Part shown: piece by piece, positions 184 through 10,431 of the stretch
Layout of the letters: every line of letters starts with the position of its first letter
Numbering within the stretch: the stretch's first letter is position 1
Assembly: GCF_000007345.1 (NCBI RefSeq)
Contig: NC_003552.1
Coordinates: forward strand, 5,084,001-5,148,000
Reading direction: 5' to 3'
Origin: Methanosarcina acetivorans C2A
Lineage (GTDB): Archaea; Halobacteriota; Methanosarcinia; Methanosarcinales; Methanosarcinaceae
DNA: 64,000 bases
Notes under the pieces: model-generated
Told to the model about the DNA's origin: nothing
Databases searched by the model: none
What the model saw: the letters and a program-made list of their open reading frames with translations, nothing else
Translations under genes and position numbers: made by a program

Positions 184-978
184 ATGGATGACCTACCGGA
201 AGAAGTCCAGGAATTAATCGAAGAACTGGATGAAGCAGCAGAAGATGAAGATGAGGATGCAATTAAAGATCTGACCCAAAAGCTTCTGGCCACCGGGGTT
301 GATGTGGAAGCAATTACCCTCAAAAAACTCGCACTCCTGGTAATGGACGGAGAGGAGGAAATGACCCAGGGCTGGACACAGGTGGCAATCCAGATCGGAA
401 CGGACCCCTTCAAAACCCTTATAGAAGGGCTCGCAGCAGGCATGAGCCTTATCGGAAAAAAATACGAAGAAGGAGAAGCTTTTGTTCCCCAGCTCCTGAT
501 AGCTTCGGCTGCAATGTACGGCGGGATGGACCTTCTCGCCCCCTACATGAAACAGGATGAAAACAGCGGTTCAAAAGCTGCAACAGTTGTCATTGGCACG
601 GTTGAAGGCGACGTCCATGACATTGGGAAGAGCCTTGTAAAAACCCTGCTCAGCGCAAATGGCTTCAATTGCGTGGACCTTGGAAATGACGTCCCAGCCT
701 CCAGATTCATCGAAGCTGCAAGAGAGAATAAAGCAACCGCGGTTTCCATGAGCACCCTCATGACTACAACCATGGCCGAGATGCCGAAGGTCGTCAAAAT
801 GCTTGAAAATGAAGGCATCAGGGATAAATTACTGGTAATGGTTGGTGGAGCTCCTATCACAGCCGAGTATGCATCCCAGATAGGGGCAGATGTTTCTCCC
901 CACGATGCAGCCAGTGCAGCAAGCTGGCTGAAAGGAGCAGTTTTTGACTTCCCGTCTGAAAGCGTGAGATGGAGTTGA
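184..978 (+). CDS. mtpC: Methyltransferase corrinoid protein (MtpC-like)
   Basis: Cobalamin-binding protein of about 264 aa that carries the methyl group between a substrate methyltransferase and coenzyme M. The vitamin B12 motif D143-x-H145-x-x-G148 gives the lower His ligand, and a GG pair near 221-222 belongs to the Rossmann cobalamin fold. The preceding four-helix cap domain is residues 45-125. The first 30 residues are unusually acidic for the family. GAGG at 173-176 supports the ATG at 184. It is followed after 69 bases by a MtaA/MtbA-type methyltransferase and then an MFS transporter, the order described for the methylmercaptopropionate operon mtpCAP of M. acetivorans. Family certain; the specific substrate is inferred from gene order. 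Confidence 0.85.
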   Translation: MDDLPEEVQELIEELDEAAEDEDEDAIKDLTQKLLATGVDVEAITLKKLALLVMDGEEEMTQGWTQVAIQIGTDPFKTLIEGLAAGMSLIGKKYEEGEAFVPQLLIASAAMYGGMDLLAPYMKQDENSGSKAATVVIGTVEGDVHDIGKSLVKTLLSANGFNCVDLGNDVPASRFIEAARENKATAVSMSTLMTTTMAEMPKVVKMLENEGIRDKLLVMVGGAPITAEYASQIGADVSPHDAASAASWLKGAVFDFPSESVRWS

Positions 979-1047
979 ACTTTACAGGTGTTTTTGCGAA
1001 CTGACCTGACTAAAAAGCATAAACGGAGTAAAAAAGGAGAAAAAAAC

Positions 1048-2082
1048 ATGGTATCTGAGATGACCTCAAAAGAAAGGGTCTTTGCAATGCTCAACAGAAA
1101 GCCTGTTGACAGGGTCCCGGTGATCACAGGCTCTGTTATGGTCAAGGAATATATAGAGAAGAGCGGGAGTTCCTGGCCCGATTACCACAGCAATGCAGAG
1201 ATGATGGTCAATACTGTGAGCCTTATGCATACCGACGCCGGGCTTGACAATATTGTAATGCCTTTTGGAATGTTCATAGAATCAATGGCTCTTGGCCTTG
1301 AAGTGAAGATGGGAAGAATTGATATTCAGCCTTCGGTAAGGAGCTTTTTCAACAAGCCCGAGGAGGTAAAATATGACAACTTCCTTGAAGACAAATATGT
1401 ACAAACCACACTTGACGCCATAAAACTAGCAAAGGAAAAATACCCCGACGCAGCAGTTACGGCTTTTCTCGTAGCTCCCATAACACTTGCAGGAGACCTC
1501 ATGGGTGCTGAGAACCTGTCCATGCTCAGCATCAAGTGCCTCCAGAAGGAAAAACAAATGCAAAAAATGAAGGACTGGATTTCGATAGCCCTGGAAATTA
1601 ACAAGATCTATGCCGAGGCCTGTGTCGAAGCCGGAGCCGATATCCTGTACTACTCGGATGCATCCGCATCCCCCAACCTGGTAATGCCTGAGTTTTACTA
1701 CCAGGTAGCTGTTCCTGCTGAAAAAGAGATAGGGGACTTCGTGCACCACCTAGGATGCCCCTGGGAACTTCACATCTGCGGAGATACCGTCCCGATCATT
1801 GAAGGAATGGCATCCACAGGCGCAGACTGCCTCAGTGTAGAACAGGCTGTTAATATGGAAGAAGCAACCAAGATCGCCGGAGACGTGCCTGTTGTCGGGA
1901 ATGTGACCCCCCTCCTGATGGTCGAAGGCACGGAAGCTCAAATTATAGAAGAAACAAGAAAAGGGCTTGACGGCGGAGCAAAAGCAAGTATGCTCGGATG
2001 TGGAACCCCACCCCTGAGCAGTTCGGACAAGCTCAAAACCTGGGTAAAAGCTGCAGCTGACTGGTCTGCAGATAAGCTTTGA
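1048..2082 (+). CDS. mtpA: Methylcobamide methyltransferase, uroporphyrinogen decarboxylase family (MtpA-like)
   Basis: Zinc-dependent methyltransferase of the MtaA/MtbA/UroD barrel family, 344 aa from the ATG at 1048. This start has AAAGGAGA just upstream; the frame is open back to 988, but that extension is lysine-rich and unlike the family. Zinc ligands are visible as H242-x-C244 and C318. Known members move methyl groups between a corrinoid protein and CoM; MtpA has been described as acting on methylmercaptopropionate with MtpC. The partner corrinoid gene lies directly upstream and a transporter follows, which favours a dedicated substrate system over general MtaA/MtbA. Family sure, substrate inferred. 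Confidence 0.8.
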   Translation: MVSEMTSKERVFAMLNRKPVDRVPVITGSVMVKEYIEKSGSSWPDYHSNAEMMVNTVSLMHTDAGLDNIVMPFGMFIESMALGLEVKMGRIDIQPSVRSFFNKPEEVKYDNFLEDKYVQTTLDAIKLAKEKYPDAAVTAFLVAPITLAGDLMGAENLSMLSIKCLQKEKQMQKMKDWISIALEINKIYAEACVEAGADILYYSDASASPNLVMPEFYYQVAVPAEKEIGDFVHHLGCPWELHICGDTVPIIEGMASTGADCLSVEQAVNMEEATKIAGDVPVVGNVTPLLMVEGTEAQIIEETRKGLDGGAKASMLGCGTPPLSSSDKLKTWVKAAADWSADKL

Positions 2083-2339
2083 TCAGATAAGCTTTGGTCA
2101 TAAAAGCTTTGAAAGTTCATTGAAAAAAGTAGGAATTGCTGTTTGAAGAAAAAAGCTATCCAGGGAAGAAAAATCCTCAGTAAGAATGGGATTATCATCA
2201 TCTTTCCATTCAAGATCTTCCCAGGGACAGAAAAGGAGGGATCGGGATTCAGAACATCCGTTTAAGGATTTCTGATTCCCGTACTCCCCATTTACATCTG
2301 TAATCCGTGTTCTGAATTATTGTTATTGGAGCGACAGCT

Positions 2340-3707
2340 ATGGGAATTAATCAGGAAAAAATGAGTAAAGTAATGAAATACCGCTGGGTGGTTTTTGTTA
2401 TTCTCGCCTTCGCGTATTTCTTTGTGTATTTCCACCGCGTATCTACCGCAGTAGTTGCGGCTGACATCATGAATACATTCGGAGTGGGCGCTGCCTCTAT
2501 AGGGCTGCTCGGGTCCGCCTACTTCTATGCCTACACGGCAATGCAACTTCCAAGCGGGATTTTAAGTGACAGCTGGGGTGTAAAAAAGACAGCCGGAGTT
2601 TTCACCCTGCTTGCTGCAGTCGGAGCCGTCCTTACCGGAGTTGCCTCCAACTTTACCATGGTCCTTATCGGAAGAGTGTTAATAGGGATCGGAGTGGCAA
2701 TGGTCTACATCCCTGTAATGAAGGTGCTTGCTATCTGGTTCAAGAAGAACGAGTTTGCCTCAATGTCCGGAGTCCTGCTCGCAATAGGGAACATCGGCGC
2801 CCTCAGCGCTGCAGGTCCCCTTGCCATAATGGCAGCTGCTTTTGGAGACTGGCAGAAAGTCTTCCTGATGCTGGGCCTTTTTTCCGTACTGCTTGCAGTA
2901 GCAATCTTTGTGCTTGTAAAGGACAAACCCGAAGAGATGGGCTGTCCGACTATTCCGGAAATCGAAGCCTACGAAAAAGGTGAAAGATACATTCCTCCAA
3001 AAGCCGTTGAAAAGATTCCAATGGGAGAAGCCCTCAGGCAGACTTTCAGCTCCGGGATGAAGTTCTGGCCCCTATCCATCTGGTTCTTCTTCATGTACGG
3101 AAGCCTCATGGTCTATCAGGGCCTGTGGGGAGGCCCCTTTTTCAGGGATGTTCTAGGCTGGGACCAGGGGACCTATGCAGGTATCCTCTCCTTCATAGCA
3201 ATAGGCATGATCTTCGGCTGCCCTATTGCAGGCTACCTCTCGGATAAAGTGCTCAAGTCCAGAAAGAAAGTCCTCATCGCAGGCACTGCAGTATACATAG
3301 TGCTCTGGGGAGTCATCTGGTCCCAGGCAGGAAACATTACCAGCACCACTGCATACACCCTCATCCACTTCCTCTTCGGGTTCTTTGGAGGTTTCTTCAT
3401 CGTATCCTATGCCCAGATAAAAGAATGGTTCCCTGCATCGATTGTGGGGACTGCAACAGGGGCATACAATATCTTCCCCTTCCTTGGAGGGGCAATCTTC
3501 ATGACCTTAACCGGGAAGATGATGGAAGTCTCGGACGGGGCTGTTGCTTCCGTAGCCCAGTATAAATCCGTCTGGCTTCTCATGTTCGCCTGCATGGTCT
3601 TTGCCTTCCTTTGCCTGCTGGTCTCAAAAGAAAAAGGCGCAGAAAACACTGCTACCCCCGTAAAAATTACAGAAGCCGGGGAAGTACCTGTCGGGTCACA
3701 GAGATAA
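2340..3707 (+). CDS. mtpP: Major facilitator superfamily transporter (MtpP-like)
   Basis: Twelve-span MFS permease of 455 aa with a cytoplasmic loop near residues 185-235. The segment around residues 28-75 (HR..TAVVAADIM, LPSGILSDSWG) is the usual MFS TM1-TM3 region with the loop-2 signature. GGAG at 2328-2331 supports the ATG at 2340; an in-frame ATG at 2361 is an alternative. It follows the corrinoid/methyltransferase pair after a 257-base gap, so it may have its own promoter. By position it probably imports the methylated substrate, as proposed for MtpP; the sequence itself shows only the MFS family. Confidence 0.8.
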   Translation: MGINQEKMSKVMKYRWVVFVILAFAYFFVYFHRVSTAVVAADIMNTFGVGAASIGLLGSAYFYAYTAMQLPSGILSDSWGVKKTAGVFTLLAAVGAVLTGVASNFTMVLIGRVLIGIGVAMVYIPVMKVLAIWFKKNEFASMSGVLLAIGNIGALSAAGPLAIMAAAFGDWQKVFLMLGLFSVLLAVAIFVLVKDKPEEMGCPTIPEIEAYEKGERYIPPKAVEKIPMGEALRQTFSSGMKFWPLSIWFFFMYGSLMVYQGLWGGPFFRDVLGWDQGTYAGILSFIAIGMIFGCPIAGYLSDKVLKSRKKVLIAGTAVYIVLWGVIWSQAGNITSTTAYTLIHFLFGFFGGFFIVSYAQIKEWFPASIVGTATGAYNIFPFLGGAIFMTLTGKMMEVSDGAVASVAQYKSVWLLMFACMVFAFLCLLVSKEKGAENTATPVKITEAGEVPVGSQR

Positions 3708-4675
3708 GAAAATAAGGAAAGGTTTGGAGCAAAAATCAGGAGATAAGAAGTAAAGATAAGGAAAAGATAGAACAAAAATTTGGAAAAAATAAGAAGTAAA
3801 GATAGAAGGAATTGAGAGAAGACAGGTATCGGAGAAAAAACTGTCCAAAAAACAATAATTTTCCGTTTTTTCAAGTCTGAAAGCCGGGAAATGGGAATAG
3901 ATGTATTCTCTGGGCCTTACTCTCTCAAACTTCGAATAATGGACTCAAAAATCTGCCCGTGCTTGAGATTTGATTTACGAAGTGTAAAAAACCTCAAAGA
4001 TTAAAAACGAGCACAATTTCCTGAAGACCGAAAAAGAGTTTGCAGAGTATCTGAAAAACCTTAGTCTTCCGGACCTCAGTCTTCCAGGAAACACCCACAT
4101 CCATTCAAAAATCAAGGTAAATGGTTCTTCGTGTATTTTGCGGGAACAGTTATTTCCGAAGTGTGCATATAAGAATTTTAGAAAAGCAGAGTGGTTCCAG
4201 ACACGAAAATGCTTTCCTGTGAGTTTGCAGTAAAAACCTGCAAAAGGCGAAGAGCTTCATTTACACATCTTCCGCAGGAGTTTTCAAAGCTCTTGTGAAG
4301 TGTTTCACACCGATGGCAGTAAAAATAGATTCTCTAAGATGTGCTGTCATCATGTATCCCCAGAGCAGGCAGTAAGTCTGCAACACCACCTCTGTGCAGG
4401 CACATATTTGCAATTTTAATGTGTGCCTGCGCAATCTTTTTTACAGATTATCTCAGGAAATATGGAGGAAATATCCGGAGAACGTGGAACCCCGGGTCGG
4501 CTGTTTAAGAACTTTTTGATGTAATAAGAATAATAACTTTTTAATATCAAATACTCCTATACTAGGTTGTTTATAAATTTCAACTAATGTTTCCCTATTC
4601 TCTTCTGCTAATATTCAATGGCGTTGATCCTGTCACGCTGTCGTTTTACCCTGAAGGGTTATAAGTCCCTGGTGA
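3708..4675. other. Intergenic region with purine-rich tract and decayed coding traces
   Basis: About 970 bases. 3708-3850 is almost pure purine on the + strand and repeats the short phrase ATAAGAAGTAAAGATA. 4000-4235 (+) carries an open stretch without a plausible start, and 4240-4440 (-) carries overlapping open frames, one containing a C-x2-C...C-x2-C pattern, broken by stops. These look like gene remnants. I recognise no intact gene. The promoter of the regulator at 4682 should lie near 4540-4600, where the sequence is A+T-rich. Confidence 0.4.
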
Positions 4676-4681
4676 TTGAGA

Positions 4682-5536
4682 TTGGACCCATCTTGCCTGA
4701 TAAAAACAATCTTCTTATCCGAAAAAAGAAAAAATGTACTGGTTCTTCTCCTGAAAGAAGGGCCAAAGAGCATCGATGAAATAAAAGAGGCTCTTGATGT
4801 CAATTCAAGTGCCCTTATGCCCCAGATAAAGAAACTTCTTAAATGGGACCTCGTAACCTATGACCCAGTTGAAGACAACTATAAGTTATCGGATATGGGA
4901 GTCCTTATTGTTGAAAAAATCGAGGAATTTCTGAATATTATCAACATTTATGTAGAAAACCATGAGTACTGGGAAACCCGCGACCTTAGTGAAATCCCGT
5001 ATCATATGAGAAAAAGGATCGGGAACCTGAAGCATTGTGAGCTTCTGGAAGCAGACAGAGACTGTCTCTTTGAATTCCATCCGACCTTTGTCGAAAATGT
5101 CCTTGCCTCAAAATATGTTATGATGGCAAGCTCCACCTTTCAGCCCCAGACAGTCAGCATCTTTTCAAAGCTCCTCAAAAGGAACGCAAAGGTTTCTTTC
5201 GTACTTACGGAGCAGGTTTTCGATAAGTTTTTTGACGATTTCCCGGACCAATGTAAGTGTTTCCTCTCTCATGAAAACATGAGTGTTTCCATGCGTAGCG
5301 GGCATATAGGCCCTCTTACTCTTGTTGTAACGAACAACTTTATGGCACTCTGGCTCTTTGACAAGAACGGACGATTTGACGGGACCACACTTCTAAGTTA
5401 CGAGGAAAGCGCACTTAAATGGGGAAGAGAACTCTTCACTTATTACTCCAGCATCTCAAATATGGTATATATAGACCCAGATTCCGGAAAAATGGAGTTC
5501 ACGGGCTATAATATCACAAAAGCCAGTAAATTCTGA
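4682..5536 (+). CDS. Methanosarcina-specific regulator (Msr family, ArsR-like HTH plus DUF1724)
   Basis: Transcription regulator of about 284 aa. Residues 10-80 form a winged helix (SEKRKNVL, then GPKSIDEIKEAL, then SALMPQIKKLLKWDLV); the rest matches the DUF1724 effector domain of Msr proteins, which control methyltransferase genes in Methanosarcina. Start: GGTGAT at 4671-4676 is spaced well for the TTG at 4682; the TTG at 4676 overlaps that site. No ATG is available nearby. Position next to the mtpCAP-like genes suggests it controls them, as reported for the regulator adjacent to mtpCAP in M. acetivorans. Family call strong, target inferred. Confidence 0.8.
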   Translation: MDPSCLIKTIFLSEKRKNVLVLLLKEGPKSIDEIKEALDVNSSALMPQIKKLLKWDLVTYDPVEDNYKLSDMGVLIVEKIEEFLNIINIYVENHEYWETRDLSEIPYHMRKRIGNLKHCELLEADRDCLFEFHPTFVENVLASKYVMMASSTFQPQTVSIFSKLLKRNAKVSFVLTEQVFDKFFDDFPDQCKCFLSHENMSVSMRSGHIGPLTLVVTNNFMALWLFDKNGRFDGTTLLSYEESALKWGRELFTYYSSISNMVYIDPDSGKMEFTGYNITKASKF

Positions 5537-6025
5537 ATTGTTTCAGAATTTTTTTGTTTTTACCACTAGATTTCTCTCGATCTCGATTTAAGACTTCTAA
5601 ATTTCGATGCTTTTTCCAGCAGCTGTTTTATAATGAATATTCGTTATGTACGCCATTGTTCCTTGGACATAATCGAAGCTGTTATATAGTTGCTTCACAA
5701 AGAATAATTAATCTAGCTACATCCATCTATGCAGGATTTTTTTGACAGATGATTTATAATAAATTCCTCATAGATAACATAGCGGGATAAATTCCTGCCT
5801 AAAACAAAAATAACACGGTTAAGAGGAAATTATTTCAATTTATTAATAAAAGAGCTTATTAACCAGAATGTAATTTCGCTCAAGTCATGCTTTAGCAGCC
5901 TTTACTGCCTCTATGCTATTGATAATGCCGCCGATTGGCTGAAATACCTTTAATTCTTATCAGCCTTTGCTTGCGAGAGGAAGTTCTTAGACACTTACAG
6001 GACAATAAAATCGGAGGAAAAATAA
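5537..6025. other. Intergenic region
   Basis: About 490 A+T-rich bases. Short open frames exist but lack ribosome binding sites and family resemblance. It presumably holds the promoter for the small membrane protein at 6026; nothing else stands out. Confidence 0.4.
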
Positions 6026-6142
6026 TTGGGAAAGTTCAGGGTAAAAACCTGGGTCGTAGATCTGGTTTTTATGCACATTTTGTTCATTGCGATCCTGTAT
6101 ATAGTCTATGTTTTTATCGTGCCAGTAATAGTTCCAAGTTAA
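6026..6142 (+). CDS. Tiny single-span membrane protein (38 aa)
   Basis: Short gene starting at TTG 6026, with a strong GGAGG at 6013-6017 eight bases upstream, and ending at TAA 6140-6142. A basic N-terminus (KFRVKTW) is followed by one hydrophobic span, residues 10-37, that begins V-V-D-L-V-F and ends F-I-V-P-V-I-V-P. The span aligns position by position with the span of the next gene (shared D, F, LY, F, VP and final P). Function unknown. The paired arrangement and good start signals argue for a real microprotein, perhaps a membrane complex subunit. Confidence 0.6.
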   Translation: MGKFRVKTWVVDLVFMHILFIAILYIVYVFIVPVIVPS

Positions 6143-6219
6143 TTGTAAAGGAATGAATATCAGACTAAGGGCTGTTTATACCCAAAGATGATTATAAAAT
6201 GGATTAAAGGTGGTCTCAA

Positions 6220-6411
6220 GTGACGGAAGGGATGAAAACTCAGATAGGCGATAATAACAAAAAAAGAAAACAAGATCCCGTTAATGAGGAGGACAGGCCA
6301 AAAGGGCTGAAGTCCAAAAGTTACTATCTTGACGTGATCTTCATTCAGCTTTTGCTTCTGTTACTTCTGTATGGAGTCGCCAAATTTGTTGTACCCATGC
6401 TGAATCCTTAA
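6220..6411 (+). CDS. Small single-span membrane protein (63 aa), paralogue of the preceding one
   Basis: Starts at GTG 6220 with GGTGGT at 6209-6214. A hydrophilic, charged N-terminal half (residues 1-33, rich in K, D, N, E) precedes one hydrophobic span (residues 36-62) of the form Y-L-D-V-I-F ... L-Y ... F-V-V-P-M-L-N-P. The span matches that of the upstream 38-aa protein in length and key positions, so the two appear to be a duplicated pair, 77 bases apart and probably cotranscribed. I do not recognise the family. An alternative start is the ATG at 6232. Confidence 0.65.
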   Translation: MTEGMKTQIGDNNKKRKQDPVNEEDRPKGLKSKSYYLDVIFIQLLLLLLLYGVAKFVVPMLNP

Positions 6412-7454
6412 TTTAATTGGAAAAGATTTTGGTTTCCTTCGGGAAAGTGTTTCAAGCTCTTCCCGAAGTAGTACCACACTATTTTAAGTGTATTTTGAAA
6501 TTAAGGCTAGTTTATTGATTTATTGGTTAGTTGGTCCTGATTTCATCAAGATCTATTATCTTCCGAGTCGGTTATCTTCAAGATCTATTATCTTTCGAGT
6601 CGGCTATCTTCAAGATCTATTATCTTTCGAGTCGGCTATCTTCAAGATCTATTATCTTCAAGGTATGTTATCTTCAAGGTATGTTATCTTTTTACTCCGT
6701 TCACCTCTGCAAGGATATTCTTTTTAGGACACTTCCTGACAACATAGCTTTTTCCGGACCCAGAGCCGTTTCTGATGCTGCTGTTCTTTCTGACACCATA
6801 CTCATCTGAACTACTGGACAAAATAGGCAACTTTACTACAAATTGTTTTATTTATAACAGATGACATCAAATCCAGGGCCAGATGCCAGGAAAACCTAGA
6901 TCTGTTTGGAGATTTCCTGCTCTCAATAGATACCTCCTTTTTTTCCTGAAAAAAGAATATCCAATTAATATAGAAAAAATTGGTTCTTAAAAATGCAGGG
7001 ACTATAAGTTCACTAAAATTTCAGCTGAAAGTTAACACATTTTATAAACTGAATAGACCTGATCGAGAAATTTGAACATACAGGATTCAGGGAGATTTAC
7101 GCTAAAATATGAAAAGGTGAATAAGTACAATTTTAAAGGGTTGAAGCACATAACAAAATATCAAGAATGCCCTGACTTGCGACAAAACAAATATTGTTTT
7201 GATAATATTCTGATTTTTTGTTGATTTTGTTCCTCATGCTTTTCAGAAGGTCATACTGAATATTTATTAAAATGTGAAATAAAAAAGCGCTACATATGCC
7301 GATTTTGATTACAGAAAAGAAAAATATGTGAGAATAAAAGAAAGAATGTAAATACTAGTTATTTCTAAATAAATCATGTAGTTATAGAAAAATATTTAAT
7401 GAAGAATTTTTTAGTATCAAATGAAAAAAAATCAATAGATCGGGAGGACAAACT
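6412..7454. other. Intergenic region containing tandem repeats
   Basis: About 1040 bases without a credible gene. The tandem repeat at 6546-6690 is listed separately. Open frames across the repeat are products of its periodicity. 6840-7450 is very A+T-rich; the promoter of the DUF1699 gene is expected near 7360-7420. No RNA gene was recognised. Confidence 0.5.
6546..6690. repeat. 32-bp tandem repeat with 16-bp sub-repeats
   Basis: Units of 32 bases start at 6546, 6578 and 6610, with a partial fourth at 6642. Each unit contains TCAAGATCTATTATC followed by TTTCGAGTCGGCTATC. The array passes into two copies of a shorter TTATCTTCAAGGTATG unit. Copies differ by only one or two bases, indicating recent expansion. 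No function evident. Confidence 0.85.
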
Positions 7455-7862
7455 TTGAAAATAAGGGTTGTGAGTTCTAGAGAAGAAATCTTTACATTGA
7501 ATCCCAACGAAAGAATAGTTCACCTGGCATTCAGGCCTTCAAACAAGGATATTTTTTCCCTGGTCGAGAACTGCCCGAAGATTGAGGTAATACAGCTTCC
7601 GAAATCATACAGGCGCACGGTCTCAAAGTCCATAGAAATGTTCCTTGAAATGCAGCGCATCCAGCTCATAGAAGGAGATGTCTGGGGACACAGGAAAGAT
7701 ATAAACGAATACTACCGCATTCCTTCCTCTATAATTGAGGAGATTAAGGAACTGAAAATCGAAGGCAAGTCCACTGAGGCTATCGAAGAAAAAGTCTCAA
7801 GGGAAAGCAAACTTAACCCTGAAATGGTTGCATACATCCTCAGAAAGGATGTTACTGCATGA
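7455..7862 (+). CDS. DUF1699 family protein
   Basis: A 135-aa soluble protein of the DUF1699 family, found mainly in Methanosarcina; function unknown. GGGAGG at 7442-7447 supports the TTG at 7455. The N-terminal part is alpha/beta (IRVVSSREEIFTL, HLAFRPSNKDIF), followed by helical segments; the C-terminal 40 residues resemble a small helical domain with a possible helix-turn-helix (IEEKVSRESKLNPEMVAYIL). A close paralogue lies at 9970 on the other strand, differing mainly at its N-terminal leader. Both have long A+T-rich upstream regions. Confidence 0.75.
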   Translation: MKIRVVSSREEIFTLNPNERIVHLAFRPSNKDIFSLVENCPKIEVIQLPKSYRRTVSKSIEMFLEMQRIQLIEGDVWGHRKDINEYYRIPSSIIEEIKELKIEGKSTEAIEEKVSRESKLNPEMVAYILRKDVTA

Positions 7863-7905
7863 GCCTCTGAAATAAATTTTCAGGCTCTCCCCATTTTATT
7901 TTCTT
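7859..7905 (+). terminator. Stem-loop and U-rich tail after the DUF1699 gene
   Basis: GAGCCT at 7863-7868 pairs with AGGCTC about 20 bases later, with additional GAAA/TTTC pairing inside. A T-rich tract follows. The stem starts inside the stop codon region, so it is likely the transcription end of the gene. Confidence 0.55.
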
Positions 7906-8839
7906 TTAATTTTTATTGCTTTGTAATTTTAATTATTGATTTATTTGTGTTACCCTTTAAATAAAGGGTTTTATAGTTTTATTACTTTTCAAGTTTAGTT
8001 ACTATTTTATTTTTATTACTTCTTATATTTAATTACTGTTTTATTTTCAGTGTCTTGTAACTTTATATAATGACGCCTTTTTAAATAATTTGCCCCACAA
8101 TAACACCCGTAAAACGCAATAGAAAGAAATCTCTGGTTAAAGTTACTTTCCAATATGAAAGTGTACAAGTTTTTCAAAGCTGATACGATAAATTATTCTA
8201 AATTGTTCTATCAATCCTTGATAGCTTATCTTATATTTGTGAGATTTCAGGAATCGTATAATAGACCAGAAAAAATAGCAGGTCAAACAAAAAATAACAG
8301 GAAAACTGGATATTTAAATTAGAAGGCAGAATAGTGAATTTAGAGAAGAGATATTCCATTTTGACTTTGCCTTTATCCAGCCTATTTTTAATCCCATCGC
8401 CAACCCGGGCTGTCCTTAATCCCTGACAGAGGACTGTTCTTTAGGAGAAAGCAGGATTATGAAAGAAACCGTCGCCTCCAAGGAAGGACAACTTATCTTA
8501 ATTGGGAGCAAACTGAAGTTGTTTTTTTCGTATTATAGATCTCCAATCCTGATTTATGCAGGAGGTTTAGAAATTCACGGGATCCTAACATGCAAATCGG
8601 GAACCTGAAACACTACACACGTGAGATGTAAATCACGAATCTGGAGTACCACGGTAACCCCCGGAATTTCTATAAGCATATTAGAATAACTTAGGATAGA
8701 TATAGATATTTTTGTTAACCATTTGCGAAGAACTGGGAACTACATTGTAGACCGGGCAATTTCAAGATTCAATAAACTAAAAAGAGAAATTCCATAAAGA
8801 ATTCAAAAAACTTCCTGAAATATGTCTGTGCCGTGAAAT
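7906..8839. other. Intergenic region
   Basis: About 930 bases between convergent genes. 7906-8060 is a T-rich stretch with repeated ATTACTTTTA-like phrases and a short palindrome, CCCTTT-AAAT-AAAGGG, at about 7951-7966. No open frame with start signals or family resemblance was seen. Confidence 0.45.
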
Positions 8840-9969: not shown

Positions 9970-10377
9970 TCAAGCAGGAGTTTCCTTTGTCAGGAGATAA
10001 GCGACCATTCCAGGATTCAGCTTGCTTTCTCGTGAAACCTTTCTCTCAATCTCCTCAGCGGACTTGCCTTCGCTTTTCAATTCCTTAATCTTTTCAATCG
10101 CTGAAGACGGAATTGCGTAATATTCGTTTATATCTTTCCTGTGTCCCCAGACGTCTCCTTCGAGAAGCTGGATGTGCTGCATCTGCAGGAACATCTCTAT
10201 AGATCTTGAAACAGTAGCTATATAAGATTTAGGTAGCTGAATGACCTCAATCTTCGGACATGTTTCAACCAATCCAAAGATGTCCTTATTCGAAGGTCTG
10301 AATGCCAGGTGAACAAGACGCTCATTCGGATTAAGTGTAAATATTTCTTCTCTGGAACTGACTACTCTTAGCCTCGT
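9970..10377 (-). CDS. DUF1699 family protein (paralogue), probable ACG start
   Basis: Paralogue of the protein at 7455, very similar along its whole length. Aligning the two places the start on an ACG codon at 10377-10375, six bases after GGGGGAG (10390-10384), exactly where the paralogue has TTG after GGGAGG. The frame is open further upstream, with a GTG at 10392 that would overlap the ribosome binding site and an ATG at 10431 lacking one. So either the gene uses a near-cognate ACG or starts upstream with 18 extra residues. Function unknown. Confidence 0.65.
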   Translation of the reverse strand, partial: TRLRVVSSREEIFTLNPNERLVHLAFRPSNKDIFGLVETCPKIEVIQLPKSYIATVSRSIEMFLQMQHIQLLEGDVWGHRKDINEYYAIPSSAIEKIKELKSEGKSAEEIERKVSRESKLNPGMVAYLLTKETPA

Positions 10378-10431
10378 GTTTTTCTCCCCCACTGTATAGT
10401 TCTTTTTTGATTGTATGTTGATATAAAACAA

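Follow-up and report, generated by a model that had tools for sequence, protein, structure and literature searches.

A paralogous pair of putative single-span membrane microproteins downstream of genes fitting mtpCAP-msrH in Methanosarcina acetivorans

Identification of the gene pair

Two very short open reading frames on the same strand of the Methanosarcina acetivorans genome, each with one hydrophobic stretch, raise the questions whether they are genes at all, whether they are related to each other, and what such small proteins might do in the membrane. They are contained in a stretch of 64,000 nucleotides, termed the window here, which corresponds to positions 5,084,001-5,148,000 of the 5,751,492-base genome. 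An earlier note, made from the sequence alone, had described a tandem pair of paralogous microproteins at this site; its coordinates, lengths, start codons, the GGAGG, and the gap of 77 bases between the genes were re-checked and are correct. The two genes, designated B and C, are the following:

6026..6142, plus strand: microprotein B, 38 aa; TTG start preceded by GGAGG; single predicted membrane span
6220..6411, plus strand: microprotein C, 63 aa; GTG start preceded by GGTGG; basic polar tail, then one C-terminal predicted span

Both products are smaller than about 100 aa and contain one predicted transmembrane helix, with hydropathy values of 3.09 for B and 2.45 for C. Among the ORFs of 30-69 aa in the window, B and C are the only ones combining a strongly hydrophobic stretch with a ribosome-binding-like 5-mer, and no ORF of this kind was obtained in 30 Markov-resampled windows. 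Together with the paralogy score and the conservation across species described below, this resampling excludes chance, and B and C are real genes. Structure prediction with AlphaFold2 on the alignment of C yielded one helix from residue 30 to 61, in which block 41-50 reached a pLDDT of 94; the tail was of low confidence, and the model overall had a mean pLDDT of 67.2 and a pTM of 0.35. A scan for bacterial-type promoters gave a score at shuffle level. The Rfam scan of window positions 4400-8600 returned no RNA match, which leaves room for an RNA of an undescribed type. Immediately downstream of C, at window positions 6546-6690, a 32-base unit is present as a direct repeat in about 4.5 copies.

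Paralogy and a third gene

The hydrophobic spans of B and C can be aligned without gaps, as the earlier note had observed, and the alignment extends across the entire helix; both share the residues K-x-[YW]-x-x-D-x-x-F-x-[HQ] ... L-Y ... F-[IV]-V-P. Scored with BLOSUM and without gaps, B against C gives 68, a value reached by none of 5000 shuffles (mean 29, sd 6), in which residues were permuted within hydrophobic and polar classes, and a profile comparison of the two gave an E value of 5.6e-8. By these measures, B and C are evidently true paralogues.

At other loci, a third paralogue, A (36 aa), is located upstream of B. Common to all three are K, Y/W, D, F, H/Q, L-Y, F, and V-P. A is an open gene in four genomes (G007, G009, G022, and G024) and degraded elsewhere, to a degenerate open frame in G013, a fragment in G014, and a broken copy in all four genomes of the sister genus (g5). 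In the window, a remnant was recognised with a DNA profile of the four intact A genes and by alignment:

5850..5942, plus strand: remnant of paralogue A (pseudogene)

Its E value of 0.066 is weak taken alone. The same profile matched at the orthologous place in the relatives L033 (E 9e-4), L036 (0.033), L037 (0.098), and L038 (0.2), in part in L035 (E 0.75), and not in L034. The B-C pair appears to be the remainder of an older A-B-C triplet. The old duplication proposed in the earlier note is supported as to age and wrong as to number, since three genes were produced and not two. The cluster would have arisen by duplication prior to the split of Methanosarcina and the sister genus; its ancestral form may have comprised a divergent two-helix gene followed by A-B-C, of which B and C would be the surviving members. 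In L037 (9173-9314) and L038 (8723-8861), additional degraded fragments of C and B lie between intact B and intact C, a sign of recombination inside the cluster.

Searches of Pfam, NCBIfam, PADLOC, and PHROGs revealed weak matches only, all below the cut-offs. The top Pfam match of C was ALN (another-regulin; E 0.085), and membership in ALN and its kin was rejected at 13.5 bits versus the 25 required. MtrG was likewise rejected, as PF04210 matches genome G000, the one that contains the window, solely at G000:C1:328063-328251, far from the window. Among PDB sequences, the pooled profile A4 had no match, and the single one of query A2 (E 1.5) was judged to be due to chance. In open-licence PMC, the searches turned up no paper on B or C, nor a methanogen paper for MA4168, MA4169, or MA4170, and the matches listed there for ribosome profiling in M. 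acetivorans contained nothing on this locus. A, B, and C apparently constitute a small, previously undescribed family of membrane microproteins.

Distribution and selection

With profile A4, matches at E 0.01 were obtained in 20 of 111 Methanosarcinaceae genomes. One of them, in G015 (E 0.004), contains a stop and lies on the opposite strand of a 601-aa ORF; it was dropped as chance, leaving 19 carriers. A second weak match in G000 (2516072-2516143, E 0.005) was dropped for the same reason. The carriers are 15 of the 30 Methanosarcina genomes and all four of the sister genus. In a sample of the phylum, 13 of 392 genomes matched, every one in Methanosarcina or g5, and none in another genus. The family is narrow, confined to two genera and missing from 15 of the 30 Methanosarcina genomes. 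C is present in all 19 carriers (in G024 partly under N) and B in 18, G017 having C alone.

Remnants of A, B, or C at the syntenic place in non-carrier loci were searched with tblastn and a DNA profile, and none were detected in 17 stretches. In three of these, L110, L115, and L116, the sequence ahead of the DUF1699 gene is only about 0.6-0.8 kb long. L115 and L116 derive from G013 and G022, which have the family on other contigs, and L117 from G015. Viral contigs yielded no match to query A1, and plasmids a single partial match to C (E 1).

In full-length relatives, C was matched with E values from 1e-13 to 1e-32. Synonymous change per site exceeded non-synonymous change in seven of eight pairs for B, the exception being G035-G037 with zero synonymous change. 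For C, the same was true in ten of ten comparisons of the helix and nine of ten of the tail, the tenth tail being unchanged. These values are indicative of purifying selection on B and C in most comparisons. Between the window copy and those of G007 and G009, dN/dS was 0.54-0.68, and constraint is therefore weaker there. With frames kept across species as well, the view of the earlier note that B and C are conserved membrane proteins is supported. The note had also named conservation of both at matched spacing as a check: both genes are conserved, and the 77 bases of the window are matched at six of 19 loci (76-81 bases), but not at the other 13 (203-326 bases in 12, 567 in one). Of 20 aligned copies of B, 12 have TTG at the start position, four have CTG, and four have CTA; in the last group, the N-terminus is therefore uncertain.

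Inside the span, the polar residues D and H/Q are conserved, and the tail of C carries a conserved G-M-K-x-Q motif. A helical period of conservation was not found in A, C, or the pooled set (p 0.72-0.81), and B gave p 0.06. No clear contact face is therefore apparent, which speaks against a simple one-face contact.

Tandem paralogues, loss and decay of copies, and patchy presence would suit small hydrophobic toxins whose tandem copies are retained and drift, belonging to a toxin-antitoxin or stress-persistence type. The conservation of polar residues and tail argues against this, as do the results of the searches, which detected neither a known toxin family nor an Rfam RNA (4400-8600) and gave no match on viral contigs; we regard toxins as very improbable.

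Gene neighbourhood

The pair is preceded by genes for methylated-sulfur metabolism, as judged from domains and gene order, and followed by a DUF1699 gene:

184..3707, plus strand: corrinoid protein, methyltransferase, and MFS transporter; fits mtpC-mtpA-mtpP by domains and order (names from PMC7374477, PMC11267899)
4676..5536, plus strand: FilR1-type regulator; fits msrH (Pfam FilR1_middle, E 1.3e-33; name from PMC7374477)
7455..7862, plus strand: DUF1699 gene, bounding the locus in 30 of 30 Methanosarcina genomes

The mtpCAP-msrH locus of M. acetivorans is described in passages of PMC7374477 and PMC11267899, mtpCAP being MA4164-MA4166, and positions 184-5536 of the window fit these methylmercaptopropionate genes. 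The fullest locus, L048, contains hypF, DUF1699, a coiled-coil gene, mtpC, mtpA, mtpP, msrH, a divergent two-helix gene, A, B, C, and DUF1699. L093 of the sister genus has the same order from the mtp genes onward, with A broken. A second DUF1699 gene is located in the window at 9970-10431. DUF1699 is multicopy, with 12 matches at E 1e-10 in G000 and matches in all 30 Methanosarcina genomes; no paper naming it was among the matches listed in open-licence PMC.

The cluster is often found downstream of mtpCAP-msrH in both genera. One reading is that B and C serve MtpP, the MFS transporter, or the mtp methyl-sulfur system as a whole, as subunits or regulators dedicated to it. The order mtp - msrH - (A)-B-C shared by L048, the window, and L093 agrees with this, and the msrH stump in L036 (residues 222-286, B and C intact) implies that the ancestor had the regulator at that place. 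With mtpP detected at E 1e-120 in 14 of the 111 genomes, ten have both mtpP and the family, nine the family only, four mtpP only, and 88 neither (Fisher p 1e-6, without correction for ancestry). For the 30 Methanosarcina genomes alone, the respective numbers are 8, 7, 1, and 14 (p 0.014, likewise uncorrected). For G034, which has mtpP only, the contig stretch L125 ends just beyond the msrH homologue, before the syntenic place. A parallel from the genus is sORF_05 of M. mazei, a small membrane protein beside a trimethylamine permease according to passages in PMC11456600. Evidence on the other side comes from the nine of 19 carriers without mtpP, whose B and C frames are intact. The mtp genes are missing at the site in L033, L043, and L045-L047 and are also absent from second A-B-C loci, and, as to possible co-regulation by MsrH, the upstream regions of mtpC and B have only one 9-mer in common, in two related loci. 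As just 10 of 19 carriers have mtpP, B and C were rejected as mtp operon components in the sense of constant co-occurrence, and they are not simply an mtp subunit. The link appears to be old and not strict. A dedicated role in the mtp system is distinctly unlikely in our estimation, and MtpP, although the best single partner candidate by gene history, is weakened by these nine carriers and stays a doubtful one.

The second A-B-C loci (L040, L041, and L042) have unrelated neighbours. That the cluster moves there as a unit would be expected if A, B, and C formed a membrane assembly of their own, a hetero-oligomer perhaps including the divergent two-helix protein. The gene for the latter adjoins the cluster in L039, L041, L044, L047, L048, and L093-L096. 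In the window, however, no such gene adjoins B-C. Most carriers have lost A, and G017 has C alone, so that the full set is evidently not needed; such an assembly is unlikely. Relatives of the two-helix gene are present in 96 of the 111 Methanosarcinaceae genomes (examples are L048 4028-4231 and G000:C1:4005116-4005301), and several genomes contain a second copy divergent to A-B-C. For the family-wide paralogue, no obvious common neighbour was seen in the contexts viewed.

The atp operon upstream suggests another connection, namely that B and C help to assemble or regulate the A-type ATP synthase, whose genes are close by. A duplicated C-terminal piece of atpI is located beside the cluster in L044 (2853-3339), L045 (9508-9999), L046 (7822-8352), and L047 (71-379), accompanied in three of the four by a copy of atpK (c subunit), at a site downstream of the main atp operon. 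These pieces look like the result of local recombination, the hypF-DUF1699 neighbourhood is present without B and C in other genomes, and second loci are situated elsewhere, all of which makes an ATP synthase factor most improbable.

Proposed role of B and C

The earlier note had considered a small complex subunit, and this role is plausible for B and C. We give an even chance to the reading that each, with its single span, assists or regulates a larger membrane protein as a subunit. B and C, presumably translated, would each insert one helix, with the basic N-terminus in the cytoplasm as the positive-inside rule predicts, and the tail of C may serve as a cytoplasmic contact arm. The tail of C is conserved and polar residues are kept within the span, from which we infer protein contacts rather than a bare anchor, and both proteins would be bound to the larger one. 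That 18 of 19 carriers retain both B and C, with A decaying, is in favour of such subunits, and so are neighbours that are often a transporter plus its regulator. Against them stand the half of the Methanosarcina genomes that lack the family and a gene order in which no partner is constant, mtpP being missing in nine carriers.

Single-span accessory microproteins of membrane proteins are known in KdpF, CydX, phospholamban, and the regulins. Like B and C, these are of 30-80 aa with one helix, and in phospholamban as in C a basic tail on the cytoplasmic side precedes the helix, but there is no sequence kinship, the best match being that to ALN mentioned above. Genome G008, which we take to be M. 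mazei S-6, has no match to profile A4. sORF_05 is therefore probably not a member of the family, and the M. mazei small-ORF data set can probably not be used to test B and C. That data set reports 314 unannotated small ORFs (PMC11456600, in part). sORF_05 (MM_RS18880), described in the same passages, resembles B and C in being small, membrane-associated, and close to genes for a methyl-substrate permease and methyltransferases, but its operon, with the trimethylamine permease, differs from the B-C locus.

MtrI, MtrR, and the single-span Mtr subunits are small proteins at an energy-conserving membrane complex of the same genus and comparable to B and C in this respect; unlike these, MtrR lacks a transmembrane domain, and the part of MtrA to which MtrI binds is the cytosolic one, as stated in parts of PMC12774963 and PMC13370731. 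Since small proteins acting on Mtr were found recently (excerpts of PMC12774963, PMC13370731), another set is worth testing, and B and C add a lineage-specific conserved family in a genetically tractable methanogen. The mtp locus is reported to rise about 100-fold under methyl-CoM reductase limitation (PMC11267899, in part). A, B, C, and the two-helix partner might represent a membrane module co-evolved with the methylmercaptopropionate locus, tuning how methylated sulfur compounds are taken up or used in an emergency, by the pathway that mtpCAP enters under methyl-CoM reductase limitation; we consider this quite improbable.

The erosion of the triplet, with A lost repeatedly and C in all carriers, constitutes a natural experiment on which member matters.
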